Shown piece by piece: positions 48,492 to 63,151 of a stretch of 64,000 nt of DNA; within the stretch, counting starts at the first letter, position 1; each line of letters starts with the position of its first letter. Source of the DNA: Chloroflexus aurantiacus J-10-fl. Lineage in GTDB: Bacteria > Chloroflexota > Chloroflexia > Chloroflexales > Chloroflexaceae. The stretch is taken from contig NC_010175.1 of NCBI RefSeq assembly GCF_000018865.1, positions 3,038,001 through 3,102,000 of the forward strand. Reading direction: 5' to 3'. Under the pieces are notes generated by a model that was not told the DNA's origin, did no database searches, and saw only the letters and a list, made by a program, of their open reading frames with translations. A program made the translations under genes and the position numbers.

Positions 48492-49493
48492 ATGAGTCAT
48501 ACCCGTCCGCCGATTGCCGTTGTCATTCCAACCTATCACGCACTACGCTTTCTTCCGGCATGCCTGAGCGCTATCCAGGCTCAAATGCTTCCCCACGATG
48601 AGATCGTGCTGGTTGACAATCGTTCGCGTGATCGGGCCGGGGATTGGGTACGCAGCTATTTTCCGACCGTCCGCGTCATTGCATTGCCGTACAACGCCGG
48701 CTTTGCCGGTGGGGTCAATGCAGGGATTGCGGCAACCCAGACCGATCTGATAATGCTGATCAATGACGATGCGTTGGCTGAGCCGGGTTGTGTTGATGCG
48801 CTCTGGGCAGCCCTGCGTGATCATCCGCAGGCGGGATGGGCAGCGGGAGTGTTGACCTTCAGCCGCCGGCCACAGATCGTTGCCGGTGCCGGGATTCGGT
48901 TCCACGCCGATGGGATTGCTACCGACTATGCCCTTGGTATGGCTGTAACCCAACTGCCGACCAATCCTCAACCCATCTTCGGTGCCAGTGGCGGGCTTGC
49001 CCTGCTACGGCGGACGATGATCACCGATACCGGCCTGTTTGCCGATTTCTTCAGTTACCTGGAAGATGCCGATCTGGCCTGGCGCGCCCGTCTGCGGGGC
49101 TGGGAGTGTGTGCTGGCCCCTACCGCCCGTGCCCGCCATGTCTACTCGGCGACTGCCGGCATGTTCAGCCCGCTCAAACAGCGCCTGCTGGGCCGCAACC
49201 GGCTGCGCATGGTGATCCGCTGCCTGCCCACGCCACTCCTCCTTGCCTGCCTGCCGTCGATCCTGGCCTACGACGTGCTGGCGGTCACCTATGCCGTGCT
49301 GCGTCGGCAACCCGACATGCTGGCCGGCAGACTCATGGCGCTGGCTGAATGGCCACAGCTTCTGCACCAGCGCCGACACATTCAAGCGCGCCGCACGGCA
49401 CCGCTCGGTGAACTGGCACGCTGGATCGAACCGCCGCTGGGTCTCGTCGGTACGTGGCGGGTGCGGCGGCAGTTGGGGGGAGGGAGGAGATAG
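48492..49493 (+). CDS. glycosyltransferase family 2 protein
   Basis: 333 residues, GT-A fold. The N-terminal strand IAVVIPTYHALRFLPACLSAIQAQ leads to VLVDNRSRDRAGDWV, and the metal-binding DxD equivalent is LIMLINDDALAEPG. FGASGGLALLRRTMI and YLEDADLAWRARLRGW (the ED catalytic loop) follow. This matches rhamnosyltransferase-like members that build cell-surface polysaccharide. C-terminal hydrophobic stretch (PLLLACLPSILAYDVLAVTYAVL) suggests membrane association. Its stop codon already lies within the start of the GATAGGA tandem repeat. Confidence 0.92.
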   Translation: MSHTRPPIAVVIPTYHALRFLPACLSAIQAQMLPHDEIVLVDNRSRDRAGDWVRSYFPTVRVIALPYNAGFAGGVNAGIAATQTDLIMLINDDALAEPGCVDALWAALRDHPQAGWAAGVLTFSRRPQIVAGAGIRFHADGIATDYALGMAVTQLPTNPQPIFGASGGLALLRRTMITDTGLFADFFSYLEDADLAWRARLRGWECVLAPTARARHVYSATAGMFSPLKQRLLGRNRLRMVIRCLPTPLLLACLPSILAYDVLAVTYAVLRRQPDMLAGRLMALAEWPQLLHQRRHIQARRTAPLGELARWIEPPLGLVGTWRVRRQLGGGRR

Positions 49494-49640
49494 GAGATAG
49501 AAGATAGGAGATAGGAGATAGGAGATAGGGGATAGGAGATAGGAGATAGGGGATAGGAGATAGGGGATAGGAGATAGGGGATAGGGGATAGGAGAGAGAT
49601 TAGGAGAGAGATTAGGAGAGAGGAGGGAGGGGAGAGGAGT
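49487..49640. repeat. GATAGGA/GATAGGG heptad tandem repeat and purine-rich tract
   Basis: About fifteen 7-base units (GGAGATA, GGGGATA variants) run from 49487 to about 49593 and continue as a purine-rich GAGAGATTAG tract to about 49640. One strand is almost free of C throughout. The GT2 stop codon is TAG from the first units. No gene is supported in the rest of 49641-49817. Confidence 0.9.
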
Positions 49641-49817: not shown

Positions 49818-50972
49818 CTAATCAAGCACAACCTGGATACTATTGCCGGGGCGATAATCCTCGCATCGACTAAAGATAATGACGCTGTTAGGATTGAGTT
49901 GTGGCTGAATAACTGCCAGCCACGGATGTTCATGGTAGGTTACGATCAGGCTGGTGAGCAGCCAGAAGGGCAATTTACCGCTCACTACTACTCCCCGTTG
50001 TGGATCAAGCCGCGGCACCGTCAGGGCAGACAAATCATCGTAATCGAGATACGGTTCTAACAGATGTGCTTTCAGCAGGGTATAATCCTGCTCTTCTCTG
50101 GTCTGCCAGCGAATAACATCAGCCACAGGTTGTGGCACACGCCGCAGGGATTGGGCCTGCGCCCAACCGAGCCGGGGATCGAAGAGGGAGAATGGCGCAG
50201 GGGCAGTGTGGCCTGCCAGTGCTGCATAGAGCCAGTTTGGGCCACGTCCATAGATAGCAAGGGGCGTTTTTGCCGGAATACTATCCAGAATCTGTGGAAG
50301 ATCAGGTGGTATCCATCTACGCTGCGTGGCCTCTACCCACATCTGCCTGGCAAGCCGATCAAGATCAACCACGAGTTCCGCAGGCGCTCGCTGCAAATGC
50401 TGCTGTACCAGTTCAGCCTGGTCGTAATGCATCAGGCGGGCAAGCCGGTTGGCCAATGCCTCTACTACTATCCCACCGGTCGGGGCATTCCGTTCAAGAC
50501 CACTAATCACCCCACGCAGCACCGGTTTTTCAACCTCAATCTGATCGCTCCCGTGCAATTCTGAGTGCAATTCTGCAACAATAATCAATCCATATTGCTC
50601 AACACGGTTACGCCATTCGTCCATTCCCTGCGGGGTGGCTGAAAGTACAATGGCGTGTGTGCACCTCTGGATAATCCGTTCCTGATCGAGCGTAGGCCGT
50701 CCTCCTACATCCACCAGCAGCGGCAAATGGCGCTGTTCTATATCGCGACAAACCCGATCAACAAACGTCCGATCAAATGCCCCTTTCTGCCGTAGCAAGC
50801 GCACCAGATCGGGTGTTGACTCCTGGCTCCAGTCACCTTCACCATCAGGACATGCACGCAAAACATAATGTTCGATGCCTCGCTGACGAAGGTACTGCGT
50901 GAGCAGGTACGTCAAAACAGATTTGCCGCTGTGTGGAGGGCCGCCGATCAGCACTGCAGGAAACGTGTTCAT
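49818..50972 (-). CDS. csx3: AAA ATPase-Csx3 fusion protein (CRISPR ancillary)
   Basis: 384 residues from ATG 50972. The N-terminal P-loop (VLIGGPPHSGKSVLTYLL) begins an ATPase-like domain of about 190 residues. After a linker, the C-terminal 90 residues (GVVVSGKLPFWLLTSLIVTYHEHPWLAVIQPQLNPNSVIIFSRC) match Csx3, a ring nuclease (Crn3) that degrades cyclic tetra-adenylate made by Cas10; Csx3-AAA fusions are a known arrangement. The conserved His of Csx3 sits in YHEHPW. It is transcribed away from the effector operon, with only 67 bases between the two starts. It is expected to switch off or tune the signal. Confidence 0.88.
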   Translation of the reverse strand: MNTFPAVLIGGPPHSGKSVLTYLLTQYLRQRGIEHYVLRACPDGEGDWSQESTPDLVRLLRQKGAFDRTFVDRVCRDIEQRHLPLLVDVGGRPTLDQERIIQRCTHAIVLSATPQGMDEWRNRVEQYGLIIVAELHSELHGSDQIEVEKPVLRGVISGLERNAPTGGIVVEALANRLARLMHYDQAELVQQHLQRAPAELVVDLDRLARQMWVEATQRRWIPPDLPQILDSIPAKTPLAIYGRGPNWLYAALAGHTAPAPFSLFDPRLGWAQAQSLRRVPQPVADVIRWQTREEQDYTLLKAHLLEPYLDYDDLSALTVPRLDPQRGVVVSGKLPFWLLTSLIVTYHEHPWLAVIQPQLNPNSVIIFSRCEDYRPGNSIQVVLD

Positions 50973-51002
50973 CTTTCCATCCAAACCCAAAGAATGATGC
51001 TA

Positions 51003-51023
51003 CAATAATCAACATCATTATTG
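51003..51023. promoter_or_regulatory. dyad CAATAAT-N7-ATTATTG between csx3 and CARF-HTH genes
   Basis: CAATAAT (51003-51009) and ATTATTG (51017-51023) are perfect inverted halves centred in the 67-base divergent gap. A wider AATGATG...CATCATT pair (50993-50999 and about 51013-51019) overlaps it. LuxR-type HTH proteins bind dyads of this size, so this is a candidate operator for the CARF-LuxR protein beside it. Confidence 0.5.
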
Positions 51024-51039
51024 CCGATATTTAATAGAT

Positions 51040-51924
51040 ATGCCAGACATTGTTTTGCCAACAGACCCATCGGCTGTGCTTGTAGCCACCCTCGGTGGAC
51101 AACCGCAAGTTGTCACCTTTGCTCTGGATGCGCTCCTCGCCCGCGGTGAACCCATTCAGGAAGTCTACATCCTTCACCTTGCACTCACCAACGAACGCAC
51201 CCGTCAGGCTTGGCAGCGGCTACAACGAGAATTTGTCGATGATTACTACGCTGGTCGACGTTGTCGGCTGCGGCAAGTACCTATTGGTGCAAACGGTAGC
51301 GAATTAACCGACATCCGTACCACAACCGATGTCGAAATCGCCTTTCAGGCCATTCGCCAACTCATCGTTGATCTGAAAACGAACGGACGACGGCTCCATC
51401 TCTGCCTGAGTGGTGGTCGGCGCATGATGGCGCTCCTGGCAACCTCAATTGCAGCACTCTACTGTGACCACCAGGATCGACTCTGGCATATGCACACCCC
51501 CGAAACCACGTTACAGCGTGTCAAAGACGGTGCCCAGATGCACGTTCAGCCCGCAGATGGGGTGTCACTGATTCAGATTCCGCTCACACCCTGGGGAGCC
51601 TACTTTCCCGGCCTCCGCCTGCTGGCCCAACCCGACTCTCGCTCGATCCAAGATCAGCTACAACGCTTCCTTAGTGACGATCCACGCTGTCAGCAGGTCT
51701 GGGATCGTCTCACAACCCGCCAGCGCGATGTCTTGCGAGCGTTTGCGAAGGGATTACGTCCGGATCAGGTTGCCGATCAGCTCTCGATCTCATTGAGCAC
51801 CGTGAATTCCCACAAAACCGCCATCCTGGCAGAATGCCGCATTGCCTGGCATATCTCCGATGCAGAATCCCTCGACTACCGGTTTCTCCGCGATCACTTT
51901 GCCGGCTTCGTGGAACGAGTATAG
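51040..51924 (+). CDS. CARF-domain protein (NE0113/Csm6-ring-nuclease type) fused to a LuxR-type HTH
   Basis: 294 residues. Residues about 10-200 are the CRISPR-associated NE0113-like family: VLVATLGGQPQVVTFALDALLARGEP, EVYILHLAL, LHLCLSGGRRMMALLATSIAALY. This is a Rossmann-type cyclic oligoadenylate sensor or ring-nuclease fold. Residues about 228-275 form a GerE/LuxR helix-turn-helix: LTTRQRDVLRAFAKGLRPDQVADQLSISLSTVNSHKTAIL. The combination predicts a transcription factor that reads the second messenger made by Cas10. It opens the plus-strand CRISPR cluster; an imperfect stem-loop (51941-51963) with a T-run follows, so the main operon may have its own promoter. Confidence 0.85.
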   Translation: MPDIVLPTDPSAVLVATLGGQPQVVTFALDALLARGEPIQEVYILHLALTNERTRQAWQRLQREFVDDYYAGRRCRLRQVPIGANGSELTDIRTTTDVEIAFQAIRQLIVDLKTNGRRLHLCLSGGRRMMALLATSIAALYCDHQDRLWHMHTPETTLQRVKDGAQMHVQPADGVSLIQIPLTPWGAYFPGLRLLAQPDSRSIQDQLQRFLSDDPRCQQVWDRLTTRQRDVLRAFAKGLRPDQVADQLSISLSTVNSHKTAILAECRIAWHISDAESLDYRFLRDHFAGFVERV

Positions 51925-51940
51925 CAGAGCGTGTGCGATG

Positions 51941-51968
51941 AATAATCACAAGAGGTGATGATTGTTTT
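51941..51968 (+). terminator. stem-loop with T-run after the CARF-LuxR gene
   Basis: AATAATCAC (51941-51949) pairs with GTGATGATT (51955-51963), one mismatch, with a 5-base loop, then GTTTTT. It looks like a weak terminator between the sensor gene and the CARF-nuclease gene. Confidence 0.55.
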
Positions 51969-52064
51969 TCAGTAGCAGTGGTGAGGTGGATGCAGGGTGG
52001 AAGGGGTAGGATGGGGGGGAGGGGGGAAAGCGCATCAGATGCCGTTTTCTACACGGGGGAGATA

Positions 52065-53336
52065 GTGACAACTCAACCTGCCATTCAGGATCGTTATAAG
52101 AGCGATCATTTGTTTTTGCTGGTCGGTACCAACCCCTTGCCAAATTTCGTAGCAGCGACGCTCATGTTAAGGTCGCAGGGGCAACTCTATCTGGTTCACT
52201 CCGACAAAACCAGGACTGTGGCAGAACGTCTGGCGCGCTACTGGGCTGAACATCACCGGCAACCGCAGTTTGTATGTGTCAATGAGTCGGATGGTGCTGA
52301 CATTCGCCGGCACATTGAGCATGCGCTGAAACACATTGGAGACAAGCACGTTGGTCTCAACTATACGGGTGGCACCAAAATGATGGCGGTGCACGCAACT
52401 CAGGTGATACGAGACTACCAGAAACCCCAACGACCGGTAACCTTGAGTTATCTGGACGCACGCACGAACAGGATGTATATCGAGCATGGTAATGAGCCGG
52501 CGTTTATGACTGAGCCGTTGCTCTACGAAGTGCAACCCTCTATTCAGGACATTGTCAAATTGCATGCGTTCAGGCTTCAAGACTCGATTGCCAGGGCAGT
52601 GCAGCTTTCCGAACTGGCTACCGTTCTTGCCGGCGTTCACCAAAACCCTGATGCAATTAAGGCGTGGCGAACGTGGTGCGACGAGGTTTTGCGCAAAAAC
52701 ACCCGTACCCAGAAATTCCACGAATGGGATAAGGAAAACCGGCTTCAAAACCTGCACATTGAGTTGCCGACAGATAAATCTCTGGAAACGGTCGCCAGGC
52801 AGATGAGTACCTCTTTTGCCACGAGTGACAGTAACTTTCGACTGCTAGAGGCAACGAAACGGTCTGGTTTTGCGAGGATCAAACACCTGTGTGAATGGCT
52901 GGACGGTAAGTGGCTGGAACACTATGTATTCGATGTTTTGAGCCAGATACGCGCGCAGCGACCTGAAAGTCGAATCCATGACATCGGTATGGGCATCCGT
53001 CCGCAGAGCGAATCGGACAGTCCGGAATACGACATTGATATAGGCGTGATGCAGGGATACAGGCTCTACGCCATTTCATGCACAACCGACACGAATCCCG
53101 GAATGTGCAAACTGAAACTCTTTGAAGCGTATATCCGCGCCCGTAATATGGCCGGCGATGAGGCGTGTGTGGGTCTGGTCTGCATGGTAGATACACCCGA
53201 AAACCTGCAACGCCAGATTGTACGCTCGTGGGATGCGGAAGGCAAGGTGCGCGTGTTTGGCCGTCGGGATATGCCAGATCTGATCAACCGTATGGCCGAG
53301 TGGTTTCTCATCACAGGGGAAGGAAGGCACGCATGA
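52065..53336 (+). CDS. Card1/Can2-like CARF-nuclease fold protein
   Basis: About 423 residues from GTG 52065; ATGs at 51990 and 52011 and a GTG at 51978 are alternatives, but they lie in low-complexity G-rich DNA. The N-terminal CARF domain has the ligand-loop LLVGTNPLPNFVAATLM and the NYTGGTKMMAVHA motif. A helical middle leads to a C-terminal restriction-endonuclease-like fold (WLEHYVFDVL at about 283, YDIDIGVMQGYRLYAISCTT at about 322-341). Card1/Can2 effectors cut DNA or RNA when bound to cyclic tetra-adenylate. Here the usual E-x-K reads S-C-T, so catalysis may be altered. It overlaps cas10 by ATGA. Confidence 0.85.
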   Translation: MTTQPAIQDRYKSDHLFLLVGTNPLPNFVAATLMLRSQGQLYLVHSDKTRTVAERLARYWAEHHRQPQFVCVNESDGADIRRHIEHALKHIGDKHVGLNYTGGTKMMAVHATQVIRDYQKPQRPVTLSYLDARTNRMYIEHGNEPAFMTEPLLYEVQPSIQDIVKLHAFRLQDSIARAVQLSELATVLAGVHQNPDAIKAWRTWCDEVLRKNTRTQKFHEWDKENRLQNLHIELPTDKSLETVARQMSTSFATSDSNFRLLEATKRSGFARIKHLCEWLDGKWLEHYVFDVLSQIRAQRPESRIHDIGMGIRPQSESDSPEYDIDIGVMQGYRLYAISCTTDTNPGMCKLKLFEAYIRARNMAGDEACVGLVCMVDTPENLQRQIVRSWDAEGKVRVFGRRDMPDLINRMAEWFLITGEGRHA

Positions 53337-54955
53337 CCGAATATATTCTGACCGCTATCGATACCACCCAAATCCAGGGGTATATCTTTGGCAGCAACAG
53401 GCTGCAAGAGAATATCGGCGGTTCTGAGCTGGTCGAACGGGCAACGCATCAATGGGTGTACGAGGCGCTCCCTGCTGCTCACAACGTGGTGGATGTGGCT
53501 ACAGGCAAACTTGATAATAACCGTACCATCGACACCCTGGACGCAGAGGTTATCTACGCTGGTGGTGGCAATACGGTGATCCTGTTCAAGACCATGGATC
53601 TGGCACGCGCATTTACTAGTCGATGGACGCGGCGGGTTCTGCGCGAAGCCCCTGGTCTGGAAGTTGTAGTGGCGCACCGTCGTTTTGATTGGACGAAGGA
53701 AGCCCTATCACAGGTTGTCAGTACGACGTTAGGTGTTGATCTGGCGCGCAAAAAACATCATCGGACTCCCTCAATGCCACTGCTGGGGCTGGGTGTGACG
53801 GTGCCTTGCGCTTCGACCGGACTGGTCGCATCCCGAATCGTTGAAAAAAAGCCGGTATCGCTGGAAATCAGGGCAAAAAGTGATGCAAAGGTCCAAAATC
53901 AGAGTGTGGAACGCCTGAAAGCCAGATTGCCGCAGATAGAGCAGGGAAACTGGGAAATTCCGCGCGATTTTGATGATTTAGGTCGAGTTAAGGGTGAAGA
54001 AAGTTATATTGCGGTTGTTCATGCTGATGGTAATGGGATTGGGCGGCGGGTGGAAGCCATTGCCCGTCGCTACGGCACCCCTCAGCAGAACCGGGCGTAT
54101 ATTGAAGCAATCCGCAACTTCTCGCACAGTCTTGAGCACGCTGCTACTCAGGCTCTGAATAGCGTCGTTGACCTGATGGCAGCAGCCTTTATTGCCGACG
54201 ATGAACTTGCCAACCGTCATCGCCAGAAATTTCCTATTCGTCCCATCGTGTTTGGTGGTGATGATGTGACGTTTGTCTGCCACGGCAGTTACGGTCTATC
54301 ACTGGCAGTGCGTTATCTGGAAGCATTTGAGGCTGCAACGAAAAATGAACCGGCTTTCGAGGGTAAACCAGCGTATGCATGTGCCGGCGTCGCCATTGTC
54401 AAGACGCACTATCCTTTTGCCCGTGCCTACCGTTTAAGTGAGCAGCTCTGCCGTTCCGCCAAACAGATGCTCAAACAGGCAGGGATCGATGGCTCGGCCC
54501 TGGACTGGCACATCGCAATGAGTGGTATTACCGGTTCGTTAGATGAGATTCGTCTGCGTGAATACACGATCAGGCGCGGCTCGCTCTCTATGCGTCCGGT
54601 ATTGCTTGACGATTCTAAACAAACCTGGCGTAGCTGGCCGGTCTTCAAAACGTTGCTGGACCAATTCATCGATGAACACGGCGAATGGTTTGACCGCCGC
54701 AATAAAGTGAAAAGCCTCCGCGAAGCCTTACGTGCAGGACCTGACAAAGTACGGGAATTTCTCCATACATATCAACTCGGGCAACTGCCCGTTTCCCATT
54801 CGCTCAATGTTTTGGGTTACGAACAAAGCGGTTGGGCAGGTGATCGTTGCGTGTACTTTGACGCCATTGAGATGATGGATTTTTTTGTAGACCTGCAAAA
54901 GATCGTTGCGGATTCTCTCGGGGAACAGGAGGAGGCCGCACATGCCGGCGTATAA
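53333..54955 (+). CDS. cas10: type III Cas10 subunit without HD domain, GGDD cyclase motif intact
   Basis: 540 residues, much shorter than the 750-900 of HD-containing Cas10. The N-terminus (MTEYILTAIDTTQIQGYIFGSNRLQENIGGSELVE) is the Cas10 palm entry. Two palm parts follow: VVHADGNGIG at about 226-235 and the catalytic GGDD at about 308-311 (IVFGGDDVTFVCHG). The last 130 residues are helical (domain D4-like). No HD nuclease motif is present. GGDD predicts synthesis of cyclic oligoadenylates from ATP when target RNA is bound. Those feed the CARF proteins encoded just upstream. The start overlaps the previous stop as ATGA. Confidence 0.92.
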   Translation: MTEYILTAIDTTQIQGYIFGSNRLQENIGGSELVERATHQWVYEALPAAHNVVDVATGKLDNNRTIDTLDAEVIYAGGGNTVILFKTMDLARAFTSRWTRRVLREAPGLEVVVAHRRFDWTKEALSQVVSTTLGVDLARKKHHRTPSMPLLGLGVTVPCASTGLVASRIVEKKPVSLEIRAKSDAKVQNQSVERLKARLPQIEQGNWEIPRDFDDLGRVKGEESYIAVVHADGNGIGRRVEAIARRYGTPQQNRAYIEAIRNFSHSLEHAATQALNSVVDLMAAAFIADDELANRHRQKFPIRPIVFGGDDVTFVCHGSYGLSLAVRYLEAFEAATKNEPAFEGKPAYACAGVAIVKTHYPFARAYRLSEQLCRSAKQMLKQAGIDGSALDWHIAMSGITGSLDEIRLREYTIRRGSLSMRPVLLDDSKQTWRSWPVFKTLLDQFIDEHGEWFDRRNKVKSLREALRAGPDKVREFLHTYQLGQLPVSHSLNVLGYEQSGWAGDRCVYFDAIEMMDFFVDLQKIVADSLGEQEEAAHAGV

Positions 54956-55604
54956 ACTTCAATTCGATCTGCGTTCTGCCGCTACCTTTGGGCGTGGTGA
55001 TGGTGTTGCCGGTCTGGTCGACGAAGAGGTAGAGCACGATGCTGATGGATTACCATTTTTGCGTGGCCGCACGTTGAAAGGCTTGCTGGCGGAAGAGTGT
55101 GCCAACATTCTGTACGCCCTTGGGGTACAGCAGCGTGCCGACCAATGGCGTCAGACGGCTTATCGTCTGTTTGGATGTCCAGGGAGCACTATCGCAGACA
55201 CCGGGATGCTTCGAGTTAGCGATGCGCGTCTGCCTGATGCGCTGCGGACTGCTATCAAGATGGCAGTACGCAATGGTGAGTTGTCGGCTGATGAGGTTCT
55301 GGAATCGCTGACGGCCATTCGTCGCCAGACCTCGATGAATGAGTACGGCGCTCCTGAACGAGGTAGCCTGCGCTCGCTGCGCGTTGTGTTGCCTGGTACG
55401 ATGTTTGAAGCGACCCTTGAGTTTGCGGCAGAGCCAGATGCGCAAACACTGGCACTGCTGGTAGCCTGCATTCTGGCGTGGCGACGTGCCGGCACTGGGC
55501 GTAATCGAGGGCGCGGTCGCCTGCAAGCACGGTTGATTGACAGCGACGGTGTAGACATTACTGAGCGGTACTTTCGCGTGTTTGCCGGGGAGGTGGGACA
55601 ATGA
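54942..55604 (+). CDS. RAMP (Cas7-like, Csm3/Cmr4 type) subunit
   Basis: 220 residues from ATG 54942, set by GGAGGAGG seven bases upstream; it overlaps the end of cas10 by 14 bases. Cas7 fold features are visible: DLRSAATFGRGDGVAGLVDEEVEHDADGLPFLRGRTLKGLLAEEC and the C-terminal glycine-rich GRNRGRGRLQARL loop. Asp27 (in GLVDEEV) aligns with the RNA-cutting Asp of Csm3, so it should cleave target RNA in the backbone of the complex. ATGA overlap with csx10 follows. Confidence 0.85.
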   Translation: MPAYKLQFDLRSAATFGRGDGVAGLVDEEVEHDADGLPFLRGRTLKGLLAEECANILYALGVQQRADQWRQTAYRLFGCPGSTIADTGMLRVSDARLPDALRTAIKMAVRNGELSADEVLESLTAIRRQTSMNEYGAPERGSLRSLRVVLPGTMFEATLEFAAEPDAQTLALLVACILAWRRAGTGRNRGRGRLQARLIDSDGVDITERYFRVFAGEVGQ

Positions 55605-57229
55605 ACATCATACCCTACCGTGTGACATTACTGGAACCGCTACTGGCGACACGCATTGCTGGCGATCCTAACAGTGGTGTCTCCTATCCGTATGTGCCCG
55701 GCAGTCTGGTGCGTGGTGCAGCAGTAGCTATGTATGCGCGGAACAAGGGCATCGTTGCCGTTGATGCGCGTGAAGAGGAAGCCCGACGCCTCTTCTTCGA
55801 TGGACGCACCCGCTACCTCAACGCCTATCCTGCCGATGCCAGCGGCAGAAGAACACTCCCAACACCTCGATCATTATTCCATGTCGAGGGTGAGGAGTCG
55901 CCTATCTATGACTTTGCGCTTGAGGTTATCGATGCCGTGAATGAGGAGACGGTACAGTTTGTCGGGGCGGCAAGGGACTCGCAACCTTTCTGTCGGATAG
56001 ACGATAGCAATATCTTCTTCATATCCCCGAAACGCCGCATCAATGTGCATACGCAGCGTGATCGTGTAAAAGGTCGTGCGACCGAAGTGAGTGGTGCCGT
56101 TTTTCAGTACGATGCGCTGGAAGAGGGGCAAACATTTGCCGGTTGGGTTCTGGTTGATAAAGATGACGACGTTGAACTGCTGTCCTCACTGCTCCGACAC
56201 ATCTATCGTCTTGGTGGATCGAGTAACAGCGGCTATGGACGGGTTACCGTTGCAGTGGATGCACCACAGAATATTCAGGTGTGGCGAGAGATACCCAAAC
56301 AGATCGTCCCAATCGATGCCGGCGAGACGTTCGTTGTCACCCTGTTAAGCGACACTCTGGTACGCGATCCGAATACCGGTCAATATACCTGGGATCTGCG
56401 ACCGGCACTGCAACAATTGCTCAGCGTCGAAATTGAGCACATTCACCCGATTGCCGGCGAGGAAGAGCAGCGCAGCGTCTGGCGACTGGATGAAGTGGGT
56501 GGGTTCAATCGCGCTTGGGGCTTACCGTTACCACAAGCACAGGCAATTGCCGGGGGCAGCGTCTTTGTCTTTCGCGCCAGATCACCCATCCCGGCCCAAA
56601 CTATTGCCGGTGCTGAATGGGATGGTATTGGCGAGCGACGGGCTGAGGGTTTTGGTCGTCTCGCATTCAACTGGCAGACTGAGACGGAGCTGATCAGAGT
56701 GGATCCTCCGGTGGTGAGTCTGATTGATCAACTAGTGCCGAACCTTGATGGCCCGGCACGCAATATTGCACAGCAGATGGCTATGCGTATGTTGCGTCGA
56801 GAGCTGGATGCTAAACTTCGCAAGGCAATCAACGATATTCGCCCCAAACATCTATCCATTTCTAATACTCAGCTATCAAGATTGCGGATTATCGCCCGCG
56901 AAGCGTTACCCAACGGCGATCTCGCACGGTTGCAGAAATATCTGGACGAGAACATTAAAACACGGCGTTCGGTCAGAGATCAGTTTGACCGAACACGTCT
57001 CGGTTCGGAGGAACGGCTGTCGCAATGGCTGGAAGAGCGTCTGAGTCAGCCAGAGACCGTCTGGGACAAGATCGGTGCTCAGACTCTATCCAAACGCATC
57101 GGTGCCAATGTGCTGGTTAGTACCAGGGACGATACAGAGTTGGCCCGTGAGTACACGATCCGCCTGATCGACGGTGTTCTCGCCAGACTGGCAAAAGAGC
57201 GCCGCAGGGAAGATGGAGGCCGTCAATGA
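55601..57229 (+). CDS. csx10: Csx10 (Cas5-like RAMP of type III-D) with long helical C-terminus
   Basis: 542 residues. The N-terminal RAMP part reads MNIIPYRVTLLEPLLATRIAGDPNSGVSYPYVPGSLVRGAAVAMY, typical of Csx10, the Cas5-like subunit that caps the crRNA 5' end in type III-D. A second glycine-rich region (GGSSNSGYGRVTV) closes a RAMP fold. From about residue 365 the protein is predicted all-helical (NIAQQMAMRMLRRELDAKLRKAIND and so on to the end), which is a good size for a fused Cas11-like small subunit. No separate small-subunit gene exists here. Coupled by ATGA overlaps on both sides. Confidence 0.87.
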   Translation: MNIIPYRVTLLEPLLATRIAGDPNSGVSYPYVPGSLVRGAAVAMYARNKGIVAVDAREEEARRLFFDGRTRYLNAYPADASGRRTLPTPRSLFHVEGEESPIYDFALEVIDAVNEETVQFVGAARDSQPFCRIDDSNIFFISPKRRINVHTQRDRVKGRATEVSGAVFQYDALEEGQTFAGWVLVDKDDDVELLSSLLRHIYRLGGSSNSGYGRVTVAVDAPQNIQVWREIPKQIVPIDAGETFVVTLLSDTLVRDPNTGQYTWDLRPALQQLLSVEIEHIHPIAGEEEQRSVWRLDEVGGFNRAWGLPLPQAQAIAGGSVFVFRARSPIPAQTIAGAEWDGIGERRAEGFGRLAFNWQTETELIRVDPPVVSLIDQLVPNLDGPARNIAQQMAMRMLRRELDAKLRKAINDIRPKHLSISNTQLSRLRIIAREALPNGDLARLQKYLDENIKTRRSVRDQFDRTRLGSEERLSQWLEERLSQPETVWDKIGAQTLSKRIGANVLVSTRDDTELAREYTIRLIDGVLARLAKERRREDGGRQ

Positions 57230-58701
57230 GTACGCATCCCCTGGCAACATCTCGCCAGATCAGCGAACGCTGGATCATCGAGGGTGATCTGGTGTTGCAG
57301 ACCCCAACCCACCTGGGCAATGGTGATACTGATGGCATTGTGGATATGCCACTGTTGCTGGACGAAGTGACCGGAAAAGCACTGCTACCGGGCACGTCGC
57401 TGGCGGGTGCGCTGCGCAACTATTTATATGAGCGCTGCCACGGTTTTGAGAAACAGGCATCGGACCCATGGATTGAAGCGCTTTTCGGTGGGCAGAAGGG
57501 CAACGACGATGGTGATCAGAGCGCATTGATTATCGATGATGCCCTGGGTGAGGCATCAAAGATCGAGCTGCGTGATGGGGTGCGCATTGATCCGATAACG
57601 CGCACTGCGAAAGTTGATTTCGATAATGGTGTTCCGCGTGGTTACAAGTACGATCTTCAGCTCCTGGAAGCCGGTACGACTTTCCCTATTCGGATGGAAC
57701 TGCTTCTCAGTCAGGGTAACAATCAGCAGCAGGTAAAACAAATGCTTGTCCTCGCTCTTCAGGGGCTTGAGGCAGGTGAGATAGCCATCGGGCTACGGAA
57801 GCGACGCGGTTTTGGCGTGTGTCGGGTTACGCAATGGCGTGTTACCCGTTACGATCTCACAAAGCCTGCCGGTTTGCTGGCCTGGTTAGCAGAAGATCAT
57901 CCTGACTGGAAATACGCCACCGGTAGTGAACGGCGATCTGGTCAGAGCATTGCCGGTCTCCTGAATGTGACTCTCGCGGATAGTAGCGACAAGCGTAGCT
58001 TTTGCCGGATTCGGGCACAGTTCGTCGTTGACGGTTCCATCCTGATCCGTGCCGGGTTCGATGAACAGGATCGTGGCCCGGATACCGTACACCTGCATAG
58101 CGCCCGGCCAGGTGGAACACGCAAGCCGGTTCTTTCAGGTACCAGCCTGGCGGGCGCGTTACGCCATCGTGCCGGGCGCATTCTGCGCACAATTGCCGAT
58201 GATAAGCAGGCCCAGACCATGATTGACAGTATCTTCGGCCCTGCCGAGATCACTGGCGACAAAAAACAAAAGGCTCGCTCCAGTCGCCTCGTTGTCAACG
58301 AAACGGTGATCGAGAACCCGGTGAATCTGGTACAGAACCGTATTCGCATTGACCGTTTTACCGGCAGCGTCCATGGAACGGGTTTATTCAATGAACAGCC
58401 GGTCTTTGGTAAGAACGACACCCTTGTCACCGTTGATCTGACGCTCCGCAACCCTGAAAATGCCGAAATCGGATTGTTGCTGTTACTGCTCAAAGATCTG
58501 TGGACCGGTGACTTACCGCTGGGAGGTGAAGCCGGCATCGGTCGCGGACGATTGAAGGGTGTAAGTGCAGAGATTGAAACACCGCAGCACAAAGGTAAGC
58601 CACTCACAATCAGCCTTGCAGACGGCAAACGTCTGATTCCGAGTGACCGTGATGCTCTTGAGCATTACGTTGCAGCCTTGCACGCGGAGGTAAAGCGATG
58701 A
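57226..58701 (+). CDS. double Cas7 (RAMP-RAMP) fusion, Cas7-2x type
   Basis: 491 residues with two Cas7-like repeats. Repeat 1 (about 15-215): LVLQTPTHLGNGDTDGIVDMPLLLDEVTGKALLPGTSLAGALR, with Asp40 in IVDMP at the Csm3 catalytic position, and a GLRKRRGFGVCRV glycine loop. Repeat 2 (about 255-460): GSILIRAGFDEQDRGPDTVHLHS...PVLSGTSLAGALRHR, then GGEAGIGRGRLKGV. In repeat 2 the Asp-x-Pro context is lost, so this half may hold RNA without cutting. Tandem Cas7 subunits are known from type III-Dv complexes. Stop overlaps csx19 start (ATGA). Confidence 0.86.
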   Translation: MSTHPLATSRQISERWIIEGDLVLQTPTHLGNGDTDGIVDMPLLLDEVTGKALLPGTSLAGALRNYLYERCHGFEKQASDPWIEALFGGQKGNDDGDQSALIIDDALGEASKIELRDGVRIDPITRTAKVDFDNGVPRGYKYDLQLLEAGTTFPIRMELLLSQGNNQQQVKQMLVLALQGLEAGEIAIGLRKRRGFGVCRVTQWRVTRYDLTKPAGLLAWLAEDHPDWKYATGSERRSGQSIAGLLNVTLADSSDKRSFCRIRAQFVVDGSILIRAGFDEQDRGPDTVHLHSARPGGTRKPVLSGTSLAGALRHRAGRILRTIADDKQAQTMIDSIFGPAEITGDKKQKARSSRLVVNETVIENPVNLVQNRIRIDRFTGSVHGTGLFNEQPVFGKNDTLVTVDLTLRNPENAEIGLLLLLLKDLWTGDLPLGGEAGIGRGRLKGVSAEIETPQHKGKPLTISLADGKRLIPSDRDALEHYVAALHAEVKR

Positions 58702-59258
58702 CGAAGATCTCCTACCAGCTTACCGGTGTTCCTGTGGACGATGAATTCAACACCGATCCGGCTGCCTGGATGGTGAAACATGCGCAGCAGTATAACCTGC
58801 GCTACCTGCTCGCCCATGCCGACGACGGCGTGATCTGGGGTCGTATCGATAATAGTGAGCTGCATACGTCGCATGGCATCGCTCCGGCATCTCCATCGCT
58901 ACATCCCTCAACCCTGCAACAGGCGCGCCTGTTCAGCCCGGCGGGAGAGCTGTTGCTCTGGCGCGACGATAATGGCTGGCGCGCCCGCCTGGTTGTCGAT
59001 GTTCCGGGTAACGATGATGACATCATTGACGAAGATCAGATTCTGTGGGGTGATACCGTGGACGCCACCTCGAACGGTTTCACGCTATTGCGTGAGGGGT
59101 CTCAGGGTATGCGTCACGCAGTTCCGATTGTTGTAACGCCCACACAGCTCAAGCACCACCAGCTACGCTTGCGCGTGCGTCACTACATCAGCGAAAACGA
59201 GGACGGCGAAGCCAGCATTACGCTGAGCCGTCTGGTTCAGCTTCTGCCGGAAGCATAA
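58698..59258 (+). CDS. csx19: Csx19 (TIGR03984 family CRISPR-associated protein)
   Basis: 186 residues. The conserved block YLLAHADDGVIWGRIDNSEL (about 36-55) and the C-terminal RHYISENEDGEASITLSRLV are hallmarks of this small type III-D-specific family. In the type III-Dv complex Csx19 is a structural subunit near Cas10. The mid-part (LRYLLAHADDGVIWG to TLLREGSQGMRHAVPI) is beta-rich. Start is fixed by the 4-base overlap with the previous gene. An AAGGAGATTCTT leader (10 bases) separates it from the following gene. Confidence 0.87.
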   Translation: MTKISYQLTGVPVDDEFNTDPAAWMVKHAQQYNLRYLLAHADDGVIWGRIDNSELHTSHGIAPASPSLHPSTLQQARLFSPAGELLLWRDDNGWRARLVVDVPGNDDDIIDEDQILWGDTVDATSNGFTLLREGSQGMRHAVPIVVTPTQLKHHQLRLRVRHYISENEDGEASITLSRLVQLLPEA

Positions 59259-59268
59259 GGAGATTCTT

Positions 59269-61596
59269 ATGAACATTCCCAGGCACGTAAACCCAACCAA
59301 AGAGATTGCCAGAGCACCCTATAATTTTGTGCCGCTGCCGGAGAAGATCGTTACCATCGATCCGGATACGCTGCCGGACCAGGATCGTTACGATCCTGAA
59401 CGGCATAGCGGCACTATTGAGTGTGTGATTACCACCGCTTCGCCGATCTACGTGCGTGCACCGCTGACTCCTGAAGAGTTTGAGCGCCAGGAACGTGGCG
59501 AGGATGATCAGGCGCCCTGGCGTGAACGAGTGCGCAACAAGCCAGATTTCTTCTCCATCGACCCGGATAAAACCCCACGCATTCCGGGCAGCAGTCTGCG
59601 CGGAATGTTACGTCAGCTTGTAGAGATCATCAGCTACAGCAAAGTGCAGTGGGTCTCGGAGCAATTACTGGTTTACCGGGCGGTCGGCGATACCACCACT
59701 CATGGCAAAAAATACCGTGAACGCATCATGCGTGAAGATGAGCAGCGTCCCAATCGCAATAAAAAAATGGCCTGGCACTACACGCCGCTGGTCAGAGCCG
59801 GGTATATTAAGGAAGATCGCGGCGAGTTCTTCATCCGCCCTGCCCGAGAGATCGGTGGAACTACCTTTGCCCGTATTCGGAGCGACAGCATTCCTGCACA
59901 TCTCTCGCAGATTCCTGGTTGCAAGAACGCATCGAAGATCTATTTCCAGACTGGTCCATATGACTACCAGGATGTGCGTGGCGGCTTCCTGCGCATCAAA
60001 TACGCCAGAGTAATCCGGGCCTCGGCCAAGCCAGCCGATGGGCTGATCGAGGGTGCACTGGTGCGGAGCGGACCGATGGCTTCAAAACGCAGTGAGGCTG
60101 TCATCTATCCGCCAGACGATCAGGCTGAACTAATTCGCATCCCTGATGATCTGATTGCAGCGTACAGGGATCAAATCAGCCAGGAGCAGGAAAGCCTGTT
60201 GGGGAAAGGCGGCGTCTTGCGCGACGGCCAACCTGTATTCTATCTGATGGAAAACGGCCAACTCGTTTTCTTTGGTCACACCATGATGATGCGTCTGCCC
60301 TATCAGCATAAGCCAATCAATTTCGTGCCAAACGAGCTACGCCGCGAAGAAGATCTCGATCTTGCCGAAGCGATCTTCGGCTACAGCAAATCCCAGGGTG
60401 AAGGTAAAGCACGTGCCTACGCCAGCCGTATCTTTGTGTGCGATGCGTTGCTCGAGCCGGGTCAGTCCGATATCTGGCTGGCAGCCGAGCCGGTTGTACC
60501 CAAAATCCTGGGCAGTCCCAAGCCAACTACCTTCCAGCACTACCTGACTCAGCGCACACCCGATCCACAGGAACAGGAACGTGACCGCAATGGCAACCCC
60601 AAACTGGTAAGGGAGCGTAATGACTACACCGATCCAACGACAAGTGTTATTCGTGGTCACAAACTCTACTGGCATAAGGGTGAGATTACTGTCGCCGATG
60701 TCCAGGAGGCGCTGGACAAGTTGCATGATGAGCGTGGGCGTGAAAAAGAACACGATACACAACACACACAGATGCGTCCGGTTGCCGCCGGTGTGCGCTT
60801 CCGCTGGCGCATCCACTTCGAGAATCTCTCTATGGAAGAATTAGGTGCGTTGTTGTGGGCCTTGACTTTGCCCGGTGAAGCGGGAAGAGAGTACCGTCAC
60901 AGCATCGGTATGGGTAAACCCTACGGTATGGGCGCTATCAAGATTGATGTTAACCTTCTGCTTGAAAATCGAAAGCAACGTTATCAGCAACTCTTCGATG
61001 GTGAGAACTGGCAGGAAGGGAAGACAACAGCCACAGATCGTATTCCAGCGTTCGTTGATGCATTCGATCTCTTTATTCGCAGCCGGATTGGGGCAGTACA
61101 ACATAAGAGTCTGGTCGAGGTTGAGCGCATTCAAATGTTACTATGCCTGTTGGAATGGCCCGGCCCGGACAAAGCTCTGACACGCTATATGGAGATCGAG
61201 CGCCAGGACCCCAATATCAGACGGGGCAAGATCAATGAATATAAGGATCGTCCGGTTCTGCCCGACCCGCTGCATGTCGATCCCGCCGGTCGAACCCGTT
61301 CATCGCCTGCCAGGCGTCCATCGGCGGCAAAGGGAGCTGAGTTAAGCCGGCCTGCCTCTATTGATGAAGTGAGCGAAGGCATGTATCTGGAAGGCAAAGT
61401 CGTGCGCGTCGAACCAGGCCGGGTCGTGGTTGAGATCCTCGGTCATGAAGCATCAATCACTCGTGATCGTCTGAATCCGCCTGCGCGAGACCTTGCCAAC
61501 ATGGAGGCACGTTTTCCGGTCGGGAAGACCATTCGGGCCTGGGTTGTTGGCTTCAATAAACAGGGACGCCTGCAACTTACTATGAGGAAACAATAA
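59269..61596 (+). CDS. large RAMP (TIGR03986, Cas7-insertion type) with C-terminal S1 domain
   Basis: 775 residues. The N-terminus APYNFVPLPEKIV and the block FFSIDPDKTPRIPGSSLRGMLRQLVEI are signatures of TIGR03986 RAMPs of type III-D. Long insertions separate the RAMP strands, with a final IGMGKPYGMGAIKI glycine loop at about 546. Residues about 705-775 (GMYLEGKVVRVEPGRVVVEILGHEASITRDRL...IRAWVVGFNKQGRLQLTMRK) form an S1-type OB fold that would bind single-stranded RNA. AAGGAG seven bases upstream fixes the ATG. The ATPase remnant begins one base after its stop. Confidence 0.87.
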   Translation: MNIPRHVNPTKEIARAPYNFVPLPEKIVTIDPDTLPDQDRYDPERHSGTIECVITTASPIYVRAPLTPEEFERQERGEDDQAPWRERVRNKPDFFSIDPDKTPRIPGSSLRGMLRQLVEIISYSKVQWVSEQLLVYRAVGDTTTHGKKYRERIMREDEQRPNRNKKMAWHYTPLVRAGYIKEDRGEFFIRPAREIGGTTFARIRSDSIPAHLSQIPGCKNASKIYFQTGPYDYQDVRGGFLRIKYARVIRASAKPADGLIEGALVRSGPMASKRSEAVIYPPDDQAELIRIPDDLIAAYRDQISQEQESLLGKGGVLRDGQPVFYLMENGQLVFFGHTMMMRLPYQHKPINFVPNELRREEDLDLAEAIFGYSKSQGEGKARAYASRIFVCDALLEPGQSDIWLAAEPVVPKILGSPKPTTFQHYLTQRTPDPQEQERDRNGNPKLVRERNDYTDPTTSVIRGHKLYWHKGEITVADVQEALDKLHDERGREKEHDTQHTQMRPVAAGVRFRWRIHFENLSMEELGALLWALTLPGEAGREYRHSIGMGKPYGMGAIKIDVNLLLENRKQRYQQLFDGENWQEGKTTATDRIPAFVDAFDLFIRSRIGAVQHKSLVEVERIQMLLCLLEWPGPDKALTRYMEIERQDPNIRRGKINEYKDRPVLPDPLHVDPAGRTRSSPARRPSAAKGAELSRPASIDEVSEGMYLEGKVVRVEPGRVVVEILGHEASITRDRLNPPARDLANMEARFPVGKTIRAWVVGFNKQGRLQLTMRKQ

Positions 61597-61597
61597 G

Positions 61598-61741
61598 ATG
61601 ACCGTTACAGCTTTTCGCATACAGAACTTCATGGGTTTTGAAGATAGTGGATGGGTCGAATTGCGGCCAATTACGCTGCTATTTGGACGTAATTCGAGTG
61701 GGAAGAGTGCGCTGATTCGGGCACTACTGCTCTTGCATTAG
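61598..61741 (+). pseudogene. AAA ATPase gene truncated after 47 codons
   Basis: Reads MTVTAFRIQNFMGFEDSGW...LLFGRNSSGKSALIRALLLL: the start of an AAA/SMC-like ATPase with an intact Walker A (GRNSSGKS), of the kind often coded at the end of type III-D operons. The frame stops at TAG (61739-61741), which is the TA plus first base of the TAGAACTTATTTCAT repeat end. No continuation is found before 62000, so the gene was cut by the element or by recombination at it. Confidence 0.85.
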
Positions 61742-61890
61742 AACTTATTTCATAAAAACTATGCCGTCGTGCTACCAAACTGTAGCACAGGCGCATAAAC
61801 GCCTGCCAATCGCCAACGACAGCATATTCTGCGTCCAGTCTACCGGTATGGAAGTGAGGAGAGCTAACGACCATCTTCACTTCCATAGTT
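61739..61890. mobile_element. left end of a TA-GAACTTATTTCAT element, right end not found
   Basis: TAGAACTTATTTCATAAAAA (61739-61758) is identical over 20 bases to 62874-62893. The next 65 bases (to about 61822) match 18139-18203 in reverse complement. No convincing matching right end was found before 62000, so this is probably a damaged copy or one half of a rearrangement. The segment has no gene; bases 61891-62000 are not assigned. Confidence 0.6.
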
Positions 61891-61982: not shown

Positions 61983-62873
<891 letters not shown>

Positions 62874-62876
<3 letters not shown>

Positions 62877-63151
62877 AACTTATTTCATAAAAAGTTGTAC
62901 TGTCGCGCTCGAATAACCATCTCCGGTACCATCACGTGCTGGATTGGTTGCCTTGCTCGCTCCTCATCCGCGTGTGGCGTCGTTTGGAGTGCGGCAGCCA
63001 TGCTGCCGCGCCAGCCGTACACACGATCTGGCGCGTGTAACGTCGTTGACCCGGCTGGTCACGCGGAGGCCAGGTGTGCTCGTCACGAACATGGAATCGA
63101 GCGGCAATGAAGAAGATACCTTCTCGTAGATGTTTTTTGAAATAGGTTCTA
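62874..63151. mobile_element. TA-flanked MITE-like element, complete copy of about 274 bp
   Basis: Left end TA-GAACTTATTTCATAAAAA (62874-62893). Right end TTTTTTGAAATAGGTTC-TA (63133-63151). The terminal inverted repeats agree at about 15 of 18 positions, and each end abuts TA. The interior holds the GCGGCAGCCATGCTGCCGC module in reverse orientation (62932-63064). No transposase frame is present. This is the best-defined copy of the family in the window. Confidence 0.72.

Follow-up and report, generated by a model that had tools for sequence, protein, structure and literature searches.

A semi-fused type III-D CRISPR effector and signalling operon in Chloroflexus aurantiacus, truncated at its 3′ end and probably guided in trans

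The 64,000-bp stretch of the Chloroflexus aurantiacus J-10-fl chromosome analysed here (the window; G000:C1:3038001-3102000 in a closed genome of 5,258,541 bp) carries a type III-D CRISPR locus of nine genes at window positions 49818-61596. Each gene is one intact open reading frame by an open-reading-frame check, and Pfam, NCBIfam, and PADLOC name the products as AAA-Csx3, CARF-LuxR, CARF-PDDEXK, Cas10d, a III-D Cas7, Csx10, a double Cas7, Csx19, and a TIGR03986 protein, here called Cas7-insertion (Table 1). An earlier note, made from the DNA letters alone, had proposed this content, and all nine genes were confirmed. Four joints are the 4-bp ATGA overlaps that it described (CARF-nuclease/cas10, cas7/csx10, csx10/cas7x2, and cas7x2/csx19); cas10 and cas7 overlap by 14 bp, and 10 bp separate csx19 from the cas7-insertion gene. 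The note had described the locus as lacking an adaptation module, Cas6, and array; profile and repeat searches likewise found no cas6, cas1, or array within the window, nor in the 20 kb that flank it on each side. Between 44 and 64 kb of the window there is no array-like repeat, just simple 7-bp tandem repeats, and no stray copy of any of the three array repeats read elsewhere in the genome can be recognised around the locus (the closest carry 8/28 or 15/37 mismatches).

All profile searches agree on type III-D: csx10, the Cas5 of III-D (TIGR02674, E 4e-142), csx19, a frequent III-D gene (TIGR03984), and TIGR03986 score above cut-off, and Cas10 is of the III-D kind, which usually lacks an HD domain, by profile match rather than by a Cas10 tree. 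All Csm and Cmr models of NCBIfam stay under cut-off for the locus proteins, which speaks against types III-A and III-B. Type III-E does not fit either: the subunits are separate, a Cas10 gene is present, and the gRAMP models fall far under cut-off. Neither finding that the earlier note had named as fatal to its reading, a cas6 with an array immediately outside the window or profiles favouring III-A/III-B, was encountered.

Table 1. Features of the type III-D locus and its 3′ flank (window positions)
Feature	Position	Strand	Description	Profile match
AAA-csx3	49818..50990	-	P-loop and C-terminal Crn3/Csx3 ring-nuclease domain, 390 aa	PADLOC AAA-Csx3 E 2e-220; TIGR02579 above cut-off
CARF-LuxR	51040..51924	+	CARF and LuxR-type helix-turn-helix, 294 aa	Cas_NE0113 E 3e-64; GerE E 6e-10
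CARF-PDDEXK nuclease	51978..53336	+	Card1-like, 452 aa	PADLOC CARF_PDDEXK E 3e-149; Card1_endonuc E 2e-5
cas10	53333..54955	+	III-D type, 540 aa, GGDD cyclase motif at residues 308-311	PADLOC Cas10d E 5e-141
cas7	54942..55604	+	single domain, 220 aa, predicted catalytic Asp27	PADLOC Cas7_IIId E 6e-74
csx10	55601..57229	+	Cas5-Cas11 fusion, 542 aa; Cas5 ~1-370, helical Cas11 ~384-539 (nt 56750-57217)	
cas7x2 (Cas7-2x)	57226..58701	+	two fused Cas7 domains, 491 aa, predicted catalytic Asp40 and Asp286	PADLOC Cas7_IIId E 5e-134
csx19	58698..59258	+	186 aa	TIGR03984 E 3e-36, above cut-off
cas7-insertion	59269..61596	+	775 aa; core to ~670, disordered linker 674-695 (model)	TIGR03986 E 2e-165
S1 (OB-fold) domain	61360..61587	+	residues ~698-773, C-terminus of Cas7-insertion	Pfam S1 E 2e-5, above cut-off
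ATPase stub	61598..61741	+	start of an AAA_15 ATPase gene, 47 codons, homologous over 46	AAA_15 E 7e-8
Dispersed repeat, partial copy	61739..61876		MITE-like, at the truncation point	
Dispersed repeat, complete copy	62874-63151		MITE-like, inverted ends TAGAACTTATTTCATAAAAA ... TTTTTTGAAATAGGTTCTA	

The effector subunits were compared with the type III-Dv complex of Synechocystis (PDB 8s9t; PMC11026444), in which the Cas7 aspartates D26, D33, and D246 cut the target RNA and Cas10 makes cyclic oligoadenylate (cOA). Cas10 matches its counterpart 8s9t_C (E 1e-38), its GGDD motif is conserved in relatives, and no HD domain was matched, Pfam finding only the second palm domain. Csx10 reads as a Cas5-Cas11 fusion because profile and fold both match 8s9t_A (Cas7-Cas5-Cas11) through the Cas11 part. 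A profile built from 66 Csx10 proteins aligns over 88-518 (E 1.4e-36), the AlphaFold2 model (predicted local distance difference test, pLDDT, 90.8) puts a bundle of helices at 384-539, behind a body that resembles Cas5, and the best four Foldseek matches are III-Dv chains, with 8s9t_A at E 4e-30. Cas7-2x matches 8s9t_D (E 1e-23), and Cas7-insertion matches 8s9t_E in sequence (E 2e-14) and fold (E 9e-30). Asp27 of the single Cas7 (26 in alignment numbering, which leaves out the start Met) is kept in 78 of 79 rows, with a gap in the remaining one; in Cas7-2x, Asp40 is kept in 80/85 and Asp286 in 85/85. By position and motif, Asp27 and Asp40 would correspond to III-Dv D26 and D33; pairwise search did not align Asp286 with D246.

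Type III-Dv is distinguished by subunits present once each and by a crRNA fixed at 37 nt. Shared with the Synechocystis complex are a Cas10 without a working HD domain, the Cas5-Cas11 fusion, Cas7-2x, Csx19, Cas7-insertion, the order of these genes, and, as predicted here, three Cas7 catalytic aspartates. The C. aurantiacus locus differs in encoding Cas7 as a separate protein, in ending Cas7-insertion with an S1 domain, and in having no local cas6, adaptation genes, or array. In this comparison, the Cas7-Cas5 joint is the sole unfused joint relative to III-Dv: Cas7-2x and Cas7-insertion are both present, whereas Cas7, Cas5, and Cas11 do not form one protein. The III-Dv likeness that the earlier note saw in the double Cas7 and the insertion-RAMP is borne out by the 8s9t chains.

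This layout is widespread. A TIGR03986 relative is encoded in 32 of 400 Chloroflexota genomes, and a scan of 84,980 species yielded 389 loci, the best 80 of which were read; the two sets together give 101 loci, which were chosen by similarity to the window protein and are not a census. They span Chloroflexota, Cyanobacteriota, Bacillota, Methanosarcina, Acidobacteriota, and others. All six effector genes are present in 76 loci, and all 76 have the order cas10-cas7-csx10-cas7x2-csx19-cas7ins; a cas7-csx10 fusion occurs in none of the 101. Because this order is common to the complete loci over several phyla, the mixed III-D and III-Dv anatomy is a stable stage of III-D. The mixture noted earlier is real as anatomy and does not stand as a local oddity. 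Fully fused III-Dv systems, with a Cas7-Cas5-Cas11 protein of 784-817 aa, occur in three congeners (G052, G198, and G230).

The same genome holds a second III-D effector operon, locus B, 21 kb downstream (L019:586-10548; genome 3,120,586-3,130,548), with no cas6 or array nearby. Both operons encode Csx10, Csx19, a TIGR03986-like RAMP, Cas10, and CARF effectors, which in locus B are a CARF protein and a CARF-PDDEXK nuclease. Locus B differs in its separate small Cas11 gene, in two unfused Cas7 genes instead of Cas7-2x, in a Csx10 of just 400 aa, and in a short TIGR03986-like protein of 322 aa. A gene like its separate Cas11 is absent from all 76 complete loci.

The signalling genes stand upstream of cas10. 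AAA-Csx3 is predicted to be an off-switch for cyclic tetra-adenylate and CARF-LuxR a cOA-responsive regulator; the two genes are divergent here and are divergent neighbours in relatives too. A conserved operator in the 49-bp gap between them was considered and dropped, as the window has one 7-bp inverted repeat there and the relatives none. In most of the CARF nuclease family found beside III-D, Ser-Cys-Thr replaces the ExK motif, with Ser in 56 of 59 sequences. Because these residues stand where PD-(D/E)xK enzymes have ExK, the active site of CARF-PDDEXK may be rearranged or its activity changed.

The divergent pair appears to be a constant header above a changing effector. In congener G126, a related locus occupies the same chromosomal site (the neighbouring glycosyltransferase, just beyond csx3, is 79% identical), and AAA-Csx3 and CARF-LuxR are 63% and 74% identical to those of the window, whereas the proteins from CARF-nuclease to Cas7-insertion reach just 34-54%. 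On the core tree, the Cas7-insertions of the window and of G126 belong to supported clades that lie far apart. In congener G198, the csx3/CARF-LuxR pair (58 and 67%) precedes a III-Dv operon. Since the pair is conserved while the effector genes diverge or switch to III-Dv, the latter seem to have been replaced beneath it. The cas10 of G126 at this site (L064:11154-12788) is split by a stop into frames of 423 and 121 aa.

At its 3′ end, the operon is cut short. The frame of an AAA_15 ATPase stub starts directly after the cas7-insertion stop and ends in frame at a TAG formed by the first 3 bases of a dispersed, miniature inverted-repeat transposable element (MITE)-like repeat. An AAA_15 ATPase gene lies directly 3′ of cas7-insertion in 14 relatives and is full length in most; no further close copy of the ATPase start was found. 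Operon-linked AAA_15/AAA_21 ATPases are exemplified by L078:6875-8302, L064:2966-4483, and L135:12734-14314, some of them with a DUF3696 match. The repeat is ~278 bp long, has inverted ends (TAGAACTTATTTCA...), and gives ~75 BLAST matches in this genome and, with this query, none in seven congeners. A helix-turn-helix regulator (62001-62876) lies between its two copies. In the nearest relative (L078), cas6 lies ~4 kb beyond the ATPase, and relatives often run on from the ATPase into cas6. On the simplest reading, the distal part of the operon was deleted at the dispersed repeat, and we infer that the lost part contained cas6; guides would be missing from the locus because the repeat cuts the operon off at the ATPase. 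The compact locus of the earlier note, although without Cas6 and array as stated, is better described as a 3′-truncated operon. The note had overlooked the ATPase stub, along with the Cas11 domain within Csx10, the S1 domain ending the TIGR03986 protein, and the second III-D operon.

CRISPR RNAs (crRNAs) could come from elsewhere in the genome, where cas6 occurs three times, always with cas1 and an array next to it. One site (0.710-0.731 Mb, the system extending to 0.734 Mb) holds ~279 repeats (repeat tag ATTGAAA) and is III-A-like by gene order, sequence resemblance, and RAMP matches rather than by csm profiles. A stray copy of its repeat on the other strand proved to be the degenerate end of the array. 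Another site adjoins cas3-like and other type I-like genes, a label given by neighbours rather than by a subtype test. The remaining site (4.523-4.540 Mb, at a distance of 1.4 Mb from the locus; the 4.52 Mb module) comprises cas6, CARF-HEPN, WYL, CARF-TM, RNase H-like, reverse transcriptase (RT), cas1, and cas2 genes with an array of ~83 repeats (repeat tag TTTGAAAC), and no effector genes were found in the 40 kb read. In congener G052, the complete set of eight module genes (55-78% identity) comes immediately after a III-Dv operon, which suggests what the former partner of the module was. Orthologues of its RNase H, RT, cas1, and cas2 adjoin the III-D cassette in L071/L134 and L138, and those of its cas6 in L065, L066, L071/L134, and L141. 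The repeat matches III-D-linked arrays of same-family relatives at 29/37 (L134), 25/37 (L065), and 24/37 (L063) positions, shuffles reaching at most 19. Effectors are absent from about half of RT-cas loci, and such loci may work in trans (PMC5513706). The 4.52 Mb module resembles the RT-Cas1 type III adaptation modules of that study in combining RT, cas1, cas2, cas6, and an array without an effector, and differs from them in having a congener version joined to a III-Dv operon.

The S1 domain of Cas7-insertion adopts the five-strand S1 topology in the model (block pLDDT mostly 84-94) and is tethered through a flexible linker. We examined 62 tails of at least 60 aa from Cas7-insertion relatives, the window protein included. 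Pfam places a cold-shock domain in 11, S1 in 7, and an RNase B OB domain in 5 (categories overlap), and nearly all remaining matches are OB-type domains; among 66 Csx10 proteins, taken as a control, Pfam found S1 or cold-shock domains in none. The labels S1 and cold-shock are restricted to Pfam-supported tail groups, others such as OBx being working labels. Home-made profiles found a cold-shock domain with a second probable OB domain in five tails, and in G126 a cold-shock domain (E 2.7e-18) stands where the window has S1. Linking the tail groups by hhalign profile comparison gave only weak results (best probability 64%). Because the tree of the Cas7-insertion core calls for 3 changes in S1 and 9 in cold-shock, the tails have by this count been repeatedly gained, lost, or swapped, gain and loss being indistinguishable on the tree. 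A search of the open-access literature turned up no report of TIGR03986 proteins with OB-fold tails, and the exchangeable tail is the new element here.

Taken together, the locus is a real effector that belongs to a known class, III-D; its semi-fused anatomy is common and its truncation secondary. We put at roughly 0.7 the probability that it is a functional effector and signalling operon whose crRNAs are supplied in trans. Cas10, Cas7, Csx10, Cas7-2x, Csx19, and Cas7-insertion would assemble, one copy each, around such a crRNA, and as many as three Cas7 sites would cleave the target RNA (Asp27 of Cas7, Asp40 and Asp286 of Cas7-2x). Target binding would activate the cyclase of Cas10, which has GGDD and lacks an HD domain, and the cOA produced would activate the CARF nuclease and the CARF-LuxR regulator until AAA-Csx3 ends the signal. 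The AAA ATPase and whatever came after it would have been lost through insertion of the dispersed repeat or recombination at it. The effector-less 4.52 Mb module is the most likely, though not certain, source of the crRNAs, with the III-A array as an alternative or second source. The borrowing of guides proposed in the earlier note is supported to this extent, and the genome search that it called for found three cas6-cas1-array sites; arrays of unknown repeat far from cas genes could remain.

Several observations weigh against the 4.52 Mb module as donor. The cassettes closest to this one (L078, L093, L080, L058, and L081) adjoin a cas6 of the III-A kind, and the III-D-linked repeat of L058, which ends CGAGGGGATTGAAAC, resembles the III-A repeat (24/36), its ending included; the III-A array, large at 279 repeats, may for these reasons be the donor. 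The kind of Cas6 does not visibly track the cassette tree (7 changes vs 8.2 shuffled), the module could be the partner of locus B instead, and further arrays with an unknown repeat may exist. The same complex with crRNAs from the array and Cas6 at 0.710-0.734 Mb is a sizeable minority possibility: that array is already served by a III-A effector of its own; the 4.52 Mb array lacks any, and its orthologues in genus and family stand beside effectors of III-D and III-Dv. It is improbable that the locus is a decaying remnant, deprived of its guide source and no longer functional. The truncation at the ATPase and the interrupted cas10 of G126 would fit such decay, but all nine frames are unbroken, the catalytic residues are conserved, and an ATPase present in just 14 relatives is not a general requirement of the complex.

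The purpose of the tail is more doubtful. In III-Dv, the insertion domain of Cas7-insertion keeps the crRNA 3′ seed open (PMC11026444), and since the tail is attached to the corresponding subunit, the S1 domain, by analogy, probably captures or holds single-stranded target RNA. The Pfam S1 match is modest in score, which counts against this. We suggest tentatively, at slightly less than even odds, that the end of Cas7-insertion repeatedly serves as the docking point for interchangeable RNA-binding domains of the OB fold (S1, cold-shock, and others, at times two in tandem), which tune target-RNA capture by III-D, in some lineages jointly with the operon-linked AAA ATPase. A rather unlikely alternative gives the S1 domain a role in assembly or docking (on ribosomes, RNases, or, ancestrally, the operon ATPase) in place of targeting. 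The flexible linker suits this role, and cold-shock and S1 tails co-occur with the operon ATPase (12/16 vs 3/65, Fisher 1e-8), but the association loses significance on independent pairs of the tree and OB-like tails are often present without the ATPase.

Type III-D is thought to bridge multi-subunit type III complexes and single-protein Cas7-11 tools. The loci described here represent a widespread stable stage in which Cas5-Cas11 and Cas7-2x are already fused and Cas7 is still free. The C. aurantiacus genome also holds an unfused III-D operon, and congeners hold fully fused III-Dv. An OB-fold tail that can be exchanged points to a simple, modular way of tuning RNA capture, the site displays effector genes apparently exchanged under a constant signalling header, and crRNA sharing in trans becomes testable with named arrays. 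Next to that header, between the glycosyltransferase gene and csx3, lie tandem GGAGATA-type 7-bp repeats (49479-49622), and a similar sequence is found at L027, beyond the 4.53 Mb array.

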